Positions 2,875-46,747 of a stretch of 57,358 bases of DNA are shown here, piece by piece. The stretch covers positions 1 through 57,358 of the IMG/VR virus record IMGVR_UViG_3300015189_000004; one strand, written 5' to 3'. The notes under the pieces were generated by a model. It was not told the DNA's origin, did not search any database, and was given only the letters and a program-made list of their open reading frames with translations. The translations under genes were made by a program, and so were the position numbers. How positions within the stretch are numbered: the stretch's first letter is position 1; every line of letters begins with the position of its first letter. This stretch comes from a virus.

Positions 2875-3374
2875 GTGATGTTGTCCTTGCCCACTACGGG
2901 AAGAAGGGCATGCACTGGGGTGTTCGGCGTGCAAGCAAGTACTCCGATGGCCCAAAGGGTACAAACAACCCGGTAGTCACGAAAGAACGACCCGGACACA
3001 AGGTCACTGCCAAAGGAGGGGAGAATCAGCCAGCGTCTGCGGACGCAAAGGCTATTGCTATCTCTCGGCAGAAGGCGAAGAAGAGTTCCACAGACTCTCT
3101 TTCAACGAAGGACCTTCAGGACCTCGTCAATCGGATGAATCTTGAGCAGCAGTACTCTCGGCTGACTCCAGACTCGAGGTCGACGAAGGGTAAGAAGTTT
3201 GCCGGCAAGTTTGTGGGTCAGATAGCCAAAGAGCAGCTTCCAAAGCTTGCTGTTATCGGGCTCAAGAAGGCAACCGCCGGTATTGACGACCCTCGTGTCA
3301 ACACCGCGATGAAAGTTGCGGAAGCCATGGCCTCTGCCGGCGGAAACATGGCAGGAAAGAAGAAGAACAAGTAG
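2832..3374 (+). CDS. Virion-associated protein with HYGKKGMHWGVR motif
   Basis: A 180-residue basic protein. Residues 19-33 hold the motif LAHYGKKGMHWGVRR, related versions of which occur in two proteins at 5.2-6.0 kb and at the N-terminus of the RNA polymerase-like protein at 54.2 kb. The middle is polar and probably disordered. The C-terminus has alternating helices ending in a GKKKNK basic tail. ATG 2832 follows GAAGGAGAA. It lies between the connector and the large terminase, so a head-associated role is likely. The biochemical function is unknown. Confidence 0.7.
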   Translation: MDESVPSGRRPVGVSDVVLAHYGKKGMHWGVRRASKYSDGPKGTNNPVVTKERPGHKVTAKGGENQPASADAKAIAISRQKAKKSSTDSLSTKDLQDLVNRMNLEQQYSRLTPDSRSTKGKKFAGKFVGQIAKEQLPKLAVIGLKKATAGIDDPRVNTAMKVAEAMASAGGNMAGKKKNK

Positions 3375-27139: not shown

Positions 27140-27170
27140 TCGCAAGAAAACCACGTCCTATAATGAGACC
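27140..27170 (+). promoter_or_regulatory. Phage promoter motif copy 4, drives ncRNA A
   Basis: TCGCA at 27140 (overlapping the stop of the preceding gene) and TATAAT at 27159 (19 nt), followed by GAGACCC. No gene follows within 140 nt. Instead a structured RNA with a closing stem and U tract lies immediately downstream. Confidence 0.78.
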
Positions 27171-27251
27171 CATAACGCCTACCATCCTATCAACGGAGAA
27201 ACGGCTGACCACATAGTGGAAACCGCTAAAGCGGAATGGTATCTCATTTTT
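27165..27251 (+). ncRNA. Multi-hairpin ncRNA A
   Basis: After TATAAT, GAGA (27165-27168) and TACCAT (27180-27185) pair with the contiguous 3' arm ATGGTATCTC (27236-27245), leaving an 11-nt bulge. Inside are hairpins CCAC-ATA-GTGG (27209-27219) and CCGC-TAAA-GCGG (27223-27234). The 3' arm is followed by ATTTTT. There is no ORF. It belongs to the same architectural class as ncRNAs B-F but its hairpins are not repeats of each other. Confidence 0.65.
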
Positions 27252-27703: not shown

Positions 27704-27723
27704 ACCCGCCCTATAATGAGAAC
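27693..27723 (+). promoter_or_regulatory. Phage promoter motif copy 5, drives ncRNA B
   Basis: TCGCA at 27693, inside the last codons of the preceding gene, and TATAAT at 27712 (19 nt), followed by GAGAACC. Confidence 0.8.
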
Positions 27724-27800
27724 CACACTACCGGTCACCCGCTTACGGGAGGCTGACTACCCGCTTACGGGAAGTTGAAAAGTAGTGTGGTTCTCCTTTT
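27718..27800 (+). ncRNA. Multi-hairpin ncRNA B (two repeats)
   Basis: The closing stem is 14 perfect pairs: GAGAACCACACTAC (27718-27731) with GTAGTGTGGTTCTC (27782-27795), followed by CTTTT. Inside are two identical hairpins CCCG-CTTA-CGGG at 27738-27749 and 27760-27771. The stem begins with the first base after TATAAT. No ORF is present. Confidence 0.75.
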
Positions 27801-27803
27801 GCC

Positions 27804-27834
27804 ACGCAGGAAAACCACACCCTATAATGAGAAC
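27804..27834 (+). promoter_or_regulatory. Phage promoter motif copy 6, drives ncRNA C
   Basis: ACGCA at 27804 and TATAAT at 27823 (19 nt), followed by GAGAACC. It starts four nt after the U tract of ncRNA B. Confidence 0.8.
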
Positions 27835-27939
27835 CTAGTATCTGGATCACCCGATAAGGGAGATCTGAATGGCCACCCGATAAGGGAGACCTACTTGCCA
27901 CCCGATAAGGGAGACAACAGATACTAGGTTCTCATTTTT
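27829..27939 (+). ncRNA. Multi-hairpin ncRNA C (three repeats)
   Basis: The closing stem is 15 perfect pairs: GAGAACCTAGTATCT (27829-27843) with AGATACTAGGTTCTC (27919-27933), followed by ATTTTT. Three identical hairpins CCC-GATAA-GGG begin at 27850, 27876 and 27901 (period 25-26 nt), each within CACCCGATAAGGGAGA, with different spacers. No ORF is present. Confidence 0.78.
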
Positions 27940-34522: not shown

Positions 34523-35026
34523 ATGGACGGGATCGAGGTCTGGTTAGAGATCGAAGAGGCGCCAAGATATCTTGTAAGCAGTCTTGGTCGCGTTCAAAAC
34601 CGTATGACTGGTCGGATACTAAGTCAAAGTCCAAATACGAGAGGTTATCCAAAAGTTCGATTGGTAATTGGTAATCGATCGTGGACCAGATCTGTTCATA
34701 GACTCGTTTCGGAAGCTTTTTTCGATGGTGATCACACAGGTCTTGAACCAAACCATGGTGACGGACAAAAACATAACAACTACATAGCAAATTTGGAGTG
34801 GACTACGCATAAGAAAAATATGATACATGCTGTTCGAACTGGACTGTTTACGCCTTCGGGAGGATCTAAAAAGGTTCCGATACGAATCGTGGAGACAGAT
34901 GAATTTTTTGACAGCATAAGTTCGTGTGCTAGAGCCATTGGTGGTAGACACGGGTCCATTCAACAATGTTTAGATGGTCGTCAACGATCACATAAAGGTT
35001 ACACATTCGAGTATGTTGATGACTAA
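34523..35026 (+). CDS. HNH homing endonuclease (NUMOD4-HNH)
   Basis: A 167-residue protein. A NUMOD4-like N-terminus (VWLEIEEAPRYLVSSLGRVQN) is followed by the HNH domain (VHRLVSEAFF ... NHGDGQKHNNYIANLEW) and a NUMOD1-like C-terminus (EFFDSISSCARAIGGRHGSIQQCLDG, interrupted). Lower GC and A/T-ending codons differ from the neighbours, indicating recent acquisition. It sits just before the replicase gene, a usual homing target. Confidence 0.88.
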   Translation: MDGIEVWLEIEEAPRYLVSSLGRVQNRMTGRILSQSPNTRGYPKVRLVIGNRSWTRSVHRLVSEAFFDGDHTGLEPNHGDGQKHNNYIANLEWTTHKKNMIHAVRTGLFTPSGGSKKVPIRIVETDEFFDSISSCARAIGGRHGSIQQCLDGRQRSHKGYTFEYVDD

Positions 35027-39872: not shown

Positions 39873-40258
39873 AACACGAGATCAAGAAACATTTCCAAGA
39901 GAACAAACGAGTGTATCTCGTGGGTGCAGGGTGTCTTGTTGTTGGGGTTGCTGGAGCACTTATGCTTACGCGTAGCGATGCTCGAGTGACGGTAGACGCT
40001 TGGAAGTTCATCGAGTTCAAATGGAAGTCCCCAACGACAAACAACATAATGCAAACGGTCATGGAACGTCGAGGGCACCCGGGCTATGTTGTTCGATGTA
40101 TTGAGACTGGCAAGAAGTTTGCAAGCCAAAACCAAGCTGCTTCTGAAATGGGGCTAAACGCGGGGAATCTTTGTTCGCATTTGAACGGTAAGTATGCTCA
40201 CGTTCAAGGATTCACGTTTGAACGTCTTGGCGAAGCCATTGCCTCCGGGGTCGCATAA
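39869..40258 (+). CDS. Membrane-anchored NUMOD1-like protein, second copy
   Basis: A 129-residue paralogue of the gene at 27311: basic N-terminus (KHEIKKHFQENKRVYLV), a membrane segment (about residues 15-33), FKWKSPTTN, then the NUMOD1/HTH region (VVRCIETGKKFASQNQAAS; NLCSHLNGKYAHVQGF). In both copies a promoter motif and an ncRNA follow directly, so protein and ncRNA form a repeated genetic unit. Confidence 0.76.
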   Translation: MKHEIKKHFQENKRVYLVGAGCLVVGVAGALMLTRSDARVTVDAWKFIEFKWKSPTTNNIMQTVMERRGHPGYVVRCIETGKKFASQNQAASEMGLNAGNLCSHLNGKYAHVQGFTFERLGEAIASGVA

Positions 40259-40281
40259 AATACACGCTCTATAATGAGACC
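40251..40281 (+). promoter_or_regulatory. Phage promoter motif copy 9, drives ncRNAs D/E
   Basis: TCGCA at 40251 lies in the last codons of the NUMOD1-like gene. TATAAT at 40270 is 19 nt after its start, followed by GAGACCAACC. Confidence 0.8.
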
Positions 40282-40410
40282 AACCACTGGACGCCCGTTA
40301 AGGGTATCCGACAATGGACGCCCGTTAAGGGTATCCGACAATGGACGCCCGTTAAGGGTATCCAATACCAGACGCCCGTTAAGGGTATCGAAAAGTGGTT
40401 GGTCTCATTT
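40276..40410 (+). ncRNA. Multi-hairpin ncRNA D (four repeats, 27-nt period)
   Basis: The closing stem is 13 perfect pairs: GAGACCAACCACT (40276-40288) with AGTGGTTGGTCTC (40394-40406), then ATTT. Four hairpins of the form GGA-CG-CCC-GTTAA-GGG-TA-TCC begin at 40289, 40316, 40343 and 40370, an exact 27-nt period; the last differs at its outer bases. Spacers are six nt. No ORF with a ribosome binding site lies here. Confidence 0.8.
40289..40390 (+). repeat. Four direct repeats of 21 nt, period 27
   Basis: Copies start at 40289, 40316, 40343 and 40370. The first three are identical and the fourth differs at its first and last base. They form the hairpins inside ncRNA D. Spacers are too short and too alike for a CRISPR array. 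Confidence 0.95.
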
Positions 40411-40495
40411 GAACCCATAACGTATAGGAGACCCCAGAAGGGGACACCTTTGCCGGAGACCCCAGAAGGGGACACTGGTAGTTATGGGTTCTCAT
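40411..40495 (+). ncRNA. Multi-hairpin ncRNA E (two repeats)
   Basis: GAACCCATAAC (40411-40421) pairs with GTTATGGGTTC (40481-40491). Inside are two identical hairpins CCCC-AGAA-GGGG (40432-40443 and 40460-40471), each within GAGACCCCAGAAGGGGACAC. It has no promoter motif of its own and directly follows ncRNA D, so the two may be one two-domain transcript. No long T tract follows. Confidence 0.68.
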
Positions 40496-40590
40496 AAACA
40501 AGATTAGAACTCCAATCAACGAGTCACCCCTTTAGGGGAGGCCATGTTATGCACTGCAGGCTTGGGTTGTACACGGATTCTTGTTTTCTC
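40496..40590 (+). ncRNA. Possible further hairpin RNA G
   Basis: AAACAAGA (40496-40503) can pair with TCTTGTTT (40579-40586), followed by a T-rich stretch. The enclosed region has the hairpin CCCC-TTTA-GGGG (40527-40538), similar to those of ncRNAs C-E. No promoter motif is seen, and the closing stem is short, so this may be only a leader of the next gene. Confidence 0.35.
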
Positions 40591-46644: not shown

Positions 46645-46669
46645 GAATTACACGCCATATAATGAAGAG
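46639..46669 (+). promoter_or_regulatory. Phage promoter motif copy 10, drives ncRNA F
   Basis: TCGTA at 46639 and TATAAT at 46658 (19 nt). It is followed by GAAGAGAAGACC instead of GAGACCC, the most diverged downstream part of the set. Confidence 0.75.
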
Positions 46670-46747
46670 AAGACCCTTAATCAGGTAAGTAATCGACAGG
46701 CCTAAACGAACCTCGACTACCGAGGATTATTATGGTCTTCTCTATTT
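46664..46747 (+). ncRNA. Multi-hairpin ncRNA F
   Basis: AGAGAAGACC (46666-46675) pairs perfectly with GGTCTTCTCT (46734-46743), followed by ATTTGCC. Inside are CCTCG-ACTAC-CGAGG (46711-46725) and a small CCT-TAATC-AGG hairpin (46676-46685 area). As in ncRNAs B-D the closing stem starts just after TATAAT, here at the third base. No ORF is present. Confidence 0.65.

Follow-up and report, generated by a model that had tools for sequence, protein, structure and literature searches.

Here, we describe a predicted small phage RNA that carries four copies of one hairpin and is encoded directly behind a gene for a small predicted membrane protein with a NUMOD-like helix-turn-helix (HTH) tail, a pairing that recurs in phages of Gordonia, Rhodococcus and Arthrobacter and in metagenomic viral contigs. 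Base-pair covariation shows that the RNA fold is selected, and the hairpin cores evolve in concert within one RNA while the scaffold is retained, as if tracking a partner, which points to an undescribed RNA-protein system. The reality of the RNA and its linkage to the gene family are well supported, whereas binding of the cores by the HTH domain is inferred, given that a global co-evolution test over 29 loci was not significant and that the predicted membrane topology argues against it. The DNA analyzed (hereafter, the window) is the 57,358-nucleotide stretch of IMG/VR virus record IMGVR_UViG_3300015189_000004, and its relatives by DNA infect Gordonia, Streptomyces, Arthrobacter and Rhodococcus. 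Individual phage and viral contig records read for comparison are denoted by L followed by a number.

Structure of the RNA locus

The first domain, D (40276-40406, plus strand), comprises a closing stem of 13 perfect pairs (40276-40288 / 40394-40406; 16 pairs if the AAT before the start is counted) around four hairpins with the 15-nt core CGCCCGTTAAGGGTA at 40292-40306, 40319-40333, 40346-40360 and 40373-40387, that is, at an exact 27-nt period. Tandem Repeats Finder assigned 40288-40389 a score of 169, the highest in the window. The second domain, E (40411-40491, plus strand), is separated from D by four bases (40407-40410) and consists of an 11-bp closing stem (40411-40421 / 40481-40491) with two identical 21-nt hairpins at 40427 and 40455, 28 nt apart. 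The predicted fold of 40262-40500 was more stable than that of all 200 shuffled sequences (z -7.5), as was that of the reverse strand (z -8.6), which is a necessary consequence of inverted repeats. Thus, the observation in the original prediction, four near-identical hairpins at a strict period within a 13-bp closing stem followed by a second closed domain, is confirmed, including the absence of a promoter before E. However, the first three hairpins are identical whereas the fourth has a weaker outer stem, and the four-hairpin fold (-65.4 kcal/mol) is about level with the minimum-energy fold (-66.5 kcal/mol), in which hairpins 2 and 3 are fused.

A third closed domain, F (40496-40586, plus strand), overlooked in the original prediction, follows E at once, with the closing stem AAACAAGA/TCTTGTTT around a non-repeated fold, so that D-E-F is probably one transcript of about 310 nt. 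F is related to an RNA behind the homologous gene in the Gordonia phage Odesza (75.6% identity over query positions 302-377) and in Tanis, Pherobrine and ReqiPepy6. Among the three domains, only D has a promoter, TCGCA-N14-TATAAT (40251-40275, plus strand; TCGCA at 40251-40255, -10 box at 40270-40275), which overlaps the stop codon of the upstream gene. Ten TATAATG sites in the window are preceded by TCG[CGT]A or a similar element. A 43-base intergenic motif with TATAAT has been reported for phage Conley (PMC10868162), and hence this promoter is already known; a search of the Petito and Conley announcements for RNAs, repeats and promoters yielded only this motif.

The scan for closed RNAs behind promoters was, in itself, weak evidence. 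A closing stem behind TATAAT alone was hardly more frequent than expected by chance (26 of 993, against 12 of 622, 19 of 996, 11 of 789, 10 of 763 and 13 of 742 in controls), and with the upstream CGNA element, it was found in 28 of 469 cases, against 11 of 463 and 6 of 24; the case for the RNA therefore rests on linkage and covariation. Other closed RNA candidates in the window are located at 27165-27245, behind the TATAAT at 27159, ending in ATTTTT, following a different small membrane-like ORF and lacking a repeated core, and at 46664-46743, behind the TATAAT at 46658, with a 10-bp stem (score 10) and not beside a membrane-HTH gene. A second, non-repeat closed RNA with a GGYGAGAYRC...CCYRCCTGGYG...AATCRC.GTTTT core is shared by Gordonia, Rhodococcus and metagenomic phages (L234 at 3890, L235 at 3650, L236 at 9123, L072 at 2333, L169 at 915 on the minus strand, and L203 at +65 after the gene ending at 3143 on the minus strand) and looks like a conserved, unnamed phage RNA family. 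A third closed type, with CTGGCTGA...GATACG...AGA(T/C)AAGGACCACG, was observed in L072 at 1479, L203 at 1097 (minus strand) and L044 at about 371 after 13668. A tRNA-like sequence in L086 (10703) and an annotated tRNA in ReqiPoco6 (L236, 8702) sit in the same promoter-and-closing-stem arrangement.

None of 4227 Rfam families (including phi29 pRNA and ToxI) reached the gathering threshold in the window, and only chance-like weak hits were detected near D-E-F, the best being NsiR9 on the other strand (22.5 against 90 bits). No tRNA was identified in the window, and a search of plasmids returned one unrelated short match. A scan of viral contigs for two occurrences of the pattern CCCGNTAAGGG returned 17 stretches, of which only L137 is of this kind, most of the rest being one coding sequence of other phages or unrelated repeats.

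The adjacent gene and its protein family

D lies directly behind gene P0001 (39869-40258, plus strand), which encodes a 129-aa protein with a basic N-terminus, a predicted membrane helix and a C-terminal NUMOD-like HTH. Upstream of the array RNAs found by promoter and closing stem, we encountered the same gene each time, encoding a protein of 120-155 aa with a basic start (KIKxHFxENK), a hydrophobic helix and a C-terminal HTH, except that in L054 alone the RNA lies upstream of the gene and that for L037 no such gene was found within 900 nt upstream. P0001 matches the I-HmuI_NUMOD-like domain PF22083 (E 8.1e-9; 35.4 bits against the cut-off of 27), as does the L137 protein (27.8 bits), whereas the other six of the eight proteins scanned are below the cut-off or do not match. 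All eight match phrog_27818, of unknown function (E 1.9e-63 to 8.7e-5; P0001, 1.7e-20). A comparison with PADLOC profiles produced only weak homing-endonuclease and PDC-S05 matches.

The AlphaFold model of P0001 is confident for residues 70-122 (block pLDDT 94-98) and uncertain in the middle, and the predicted C-domain aligns with I-HmuI (Z 8.3, 62 residues, 3.3 A), sCTP-23166 (Z 7.5) and I-TevI (Z 5.7). A hydrophobic 19-mer is present in 31 of 32 homologues examined. The basic KVKNHxRKNR-like N-terminus with a hydrophobic stretch also begins other small early proteins (L235 at 4459 and L236 at 8044) and so may be a shared membrane-targeting module, although a strict motif search found only P0002 in the window.

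P0002 (27311-27703, plus strand) is a paralogous membrane-HTH protein, 42% identical to P0001, followed by two closed array RNAs on the plus strand, one at 27718-27795 (14-bp stem, two hairpins with core ACCCGCTTACGGGA) and one at 27829-27933 (16-bp stem, three hairpins with core ACCCGATAAGGGA), the latter with the scaffold that we denote B-type. Thus, the window carries two pairs. A further NUMOD-like ORF (34523-35026; E 3e-6) precedes the polymerase gene, lacks an RNA array and is probably a homing-endonuclease-like gene. A search of bacterial genomes with P0001 as the single query found no relative among 174 candidate stretches, so that no prophage or host copy was seen at that sensitivity.

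Linkage between the gene family and the RNAs

To avoid circularity, homologues were searched for by protein alone, and the downstream sequence was then inspected. An automatic rule (promoter-like hexamer with upstream CGNN and a closing stem score of 7 or more, within 180 nt) detected the RNA behind 16 of 23 genes, against 5 of 732 other ORF stops in six loci. By eye, the count is 22 of 23, because six of the seven failures have the RNA with an interrupted closing stem or an unusual -35 (the latter in the case of L240), the only miss being the first gene of L241; of the Tanis-like group, only Tanis was included among the records read, without FortCran and Paella.

Copy number varies among relatives, with four hairpins in D, two plus a variant in L137 and two or three elsewhere, whereas the strict period does not carry over, the spacing being 25-28 nt in the eleven B-type arrays. 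The original prediction would have been undermined if the hairpins were absent or random in sequence in near relatives. This did not occur as such: the closest phage (L003) lacks the pair at this site but has one elsewhere, and a more distant phage (L137) has the identical 15-nt core.

Covariation and concerted evolution of the RNAs

In an alignment of ten B-type RNAs, 87.0% of cells pair, 55 cells have changes on both sides against 16.0 expected from shuffling, and the covariation score is 0.449 against 0.137, with none of 500 shuffles as high; sliding the partner by 1-3 columns leaves at most 50.5% paired. In a count by structural position, sliding by any 1-3 bases reduced pairing from 202 of 231 to at most 108 of 231. 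The B-type set of 11 RNAs was chosen by eye for a shared scaffold, with Captrips left out as identical to Avazak and L037 left out of the alignment. Inner pair 1 is CG, GC, GU or UA, and inner pair 3 is CG, GC or UA. A C-A mismatch two pairs below the core is kept in 21 of 22 second and third hairpins, while first hairpins pair normally there in 10 of 11, a pattern that makes no sense for DNA sites alone.

These results bear on the possibility that the HTH binds the repeats as duplex DNA in the phage genome, tethering it to the membrane or regulating the RNA gene, with the RNA fold being secondary. NUMOD-like domains and the three best structural matches are DNA-binding, and the cores are imperfect palindromes. 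However, base pairs covary in outer, inner and closing stems, outer stems differ between copies while pairing is kept, and the array starts at the promoter and ends at the closing stem, none of which a DNA site requires, and we consider this alternative improbable.

Over the 11 B-type RNAs, core identity is 0.83 within an RNA and 0.54 between RNAs, whereas for the flanks the relation is reversed (0.54 and 0.77); none of 5000 permutations reached the core value, and 363 of 5000 reached that for the flanks. In a comparison of window 27829-27933 with L070, the scaffold is kept and all three cores change from CCC-GAUAA-GGG to CCG-UUAUG-CGG, and in L240, three different outer stems (GAUG/CAUC, GACG/CGUC, CGUG/CACG) enclose one core. 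Unequal crossing-over would copy the outer stems too, so selection for one shared binding partner is the simpler account.

The interpretation in the original prediction is therefore supported in part. A regular array of protein sites, its better half, is supported by the concerted evolution of the cores and by the adjacent HTH protein; a single RNA is probable for the transcript, albeit with three domains rather than two; and recent tandem expansion fits the first three copies in D, which are identical including the outer stem and spacer, but is not the general rule, since in the other arrays outer stems differ between copies while the core is constant.

A possible association between hairpin cores and the C-terminal domain

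The closest test is the comparison of the Gordonia phages Avazak and Artorias. Codons 1-94 carry 8 silent and no replacement changes, whereas codons 95-131, the HTH end, carry 10 replacement and 15 silent-only changes; after the stop codon, the DNA is again nearly identical (33 of 36), the RNA outside the cores is 45 of 46 identical, and the three cores are 27 of 39. Thus, the HTH and three separate core islands changed while the DNA between them did not, although the HTH block was imported by recombination (15 silent changes), so that part of the joint change could be neighborhood. Captrips, with a protein identical to that of Avazak, has identical cores, and Perkunas, with an HTH closer to that of Artorias, has the Artorias core but for one base per copy. 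In the nine loci of the GDPGN clade, RNA similarity follows the C-domain (rho 0.49, 17 of 5000) and not the rest of the protein (0.14, 967 of 5000), although the RNA stretch of Avazak gp45 and Artorias gp44 includes a shared downstream leader that inflates that pair; in the six STPSK loci, the trend is borderline (rho 0.62, 41 of 720; rest of the protein 0.41, 128 of 720). The 19-mer of D, GACGCCCGTTAAGGGTATC, occurs in only one other stretch of the viral collection, L137, a phage about 66% identical to the window over matching DNA, with an unrelated closing stem, and P0001 and the L137 protein are mutual best C-domain matches among 29 loci.

By contrast, over all 29 loci, core similarity does not follow the C-domain (rho 0.09, 232 of 2000) any better than the N-terminus (0.11, 186 of 2000), nor does it do so outside Deejayvirinae pairs (0.02, 779 of 2000). 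The cores in this test were read by hand, and genes whose RNA has no clear repeated core or that have no RNA were not entered (among them Tanis, ReqiPepy6, Untouchable, OhMyWard, Avazak gp45, L171, L204, L064, L233, L062, L203, L039, L044, L079, L160 and the first gene of L241). Similar cores sit beside different C-domains, namely GTCATTGCGA(C/T) in L070, Pherobrine gp57, Conley and L041, and AGCATTGCGCA behind Perkunas gp56 as well as Artorias gp44 and Conley, and one protein can be followed by up to three RNAs with different cores (L240, L241, L198). Either recognition is lost to view at long distance, or some RNAs serve other partners. Net charges also favor an N-in/C-out orientation (mean +2.74 before and +1.03 after the helix; N-terminal side higher in 24 of 31, with 3 ties), which would place the HTH outside the cell and rule out binding in the cytoplasm, and the structural relatives of the domain bind DNA.

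A rival reading is a decoy array, in which the cores imitate host RNA elements and soak up a host RNA-binding protein or nuclease, for example a defense enzyme, while the neighboring membrane protein is a separate anti-host gene or only helps. Compatible with this view are the concerted change of cores, as in an arms race, the similar cores beside unrelated C-domains, the multiple RNAs behind one gene, and the resemblance, by our own reading, of some loops to anticodon loops (CTGTTAA and CTGATAA in L037 and Odesza). A decoy, however, explains neither why the RNA lies behind this one gene family nor the joint HTH and core change in Avazak and Artorias, and no host target was identified; we regard it as unlikely. 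Likenesses to boxB or MS2 operators, tRNA anticodon loops, CRISPR repeats, as in an RNA anti-CRISPR (E, CCCCAGAAGGGGAC, may resemble some type III repeats), and pRNA-like packaging RNA were considered and dropped, with no test passed.

A hypothetical membrane-anchored protein-RNA module

The explanation we favor, which we consider about as likely as not, is that D-E-F is the RNA half of a two-part phage module, the protein half being the small predicted membrane protein encoded immediately upstream, whose HTH would bind the repeated cores of its own RNA. In this view, each RNA, closed by pairing of its first bases with its 3' end, which would protect the ends, would display 2-4 copies of one core and bring several anchored protein molecules together, thereby collecting, holding or titrating the protein at the membrane, and outer stems that differ between copies would help each hairpin fold alone. 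D departs from the last point, since its first three hairpins are identical and can pair with each other, which fits a recent expansion. Our analysis demonstrates a structured RNA under selection, its linkage to the gene family and the concerted evolution of cores, whereas HTH-core binding, membrane location and multivalency in the cell are inferences. The RNA might restrain the protein, or the protein might fix the RNA at the membrane for some act against the host or a rival phage; possible roles include anti-defense, superinfection exclusion, placing of phage nucleic acid and self-restraint of the protein.

The broader possibility, that these modules comprise a widespread, undescribed class of phage ribonucleoprotein in which protein and RNA specificity evolve together and orthogonal pairs coexist in one genome, is not excluded but remains tentative, being slightly less likely than not. 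If true, phages of actinobacteria used in teaching and research (Gordonia, Arthrobacter) and many metagenomic viruses keep a membrane-bound RNA-protein system that nobody has described. The gene family is annotated only as membrane protein, HTH or HNH endonuclease, and the RNAs are not annotated at all in the records read. Avazak and Artorias form a ready natural domain-swap experiment, the arrays would provide new orthogonal RNA-protein binding pairs for laboratory use, and their concerted cores would be a clear case of fast evolution of RNA recognition.

Comparison with known systems

In the literature searched, no account of such arrays, or of this gene family paired with RNA, was found among the titles and abstract openings listed, and we therefore consider the pair to be new, although built of a known domain. 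The arrangement somewhat resembles type III toxin-antitoxin systems (ToxIN), in which the antitoxins consist of multiple RNA repeats (PMC8860590), and an RNA-antidote pair, in which a harmful membrane protein is held inactive by the repeat RNA, protecting the infected cell or excluding other phages, would account for a cognate repeat RNA beside a fast-changing protein and for two pairs in this genome. However, the protein resembles no nuclease toxin of the ToxN kind, with only NUMOD/HTH matches in Pfam, PHROGs and PADLOC, and each RNA is a closed multi-hairpin fold downstream of the gene with its own promoter (L054 excepted in position), whereas type III repeats lie upstream of the toxin gene in one operon; in addition, no Rfam family reached its cut-off. 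We consider this reading improbable, although it overlaps with the one we favor.

The protein recalls, in plan, p16.7 of phi29, a small phage membrane protein with a nucleic-acid-binding part that organizes phage DNA replication, for which no cognate RNA array was found mentioned (PMC4974454). The CsrB/RsmZ-type protein-titrating RNAs likewise possess multivalent hairpins that could collect many copies of one protein, but their sites share one short motif for a soluble conserved protein, with GGA exposed in hairpin loops, whereas here the cores differ between RNAs and change in concert, and the loops are TTATG, GATAA, TTATA, GTTTG and so on in the B-type RNAs and GTTAA in D. Finally, the C-terminal domain belongs with the NUMOD domains of HNH and GIY-YIG homing endonucleases (PF22083; I-HmuI fold match of the predicted structure), but here it is fused to a predicted membrane segment, without a nuclease domain, and is linked to an RNA array.
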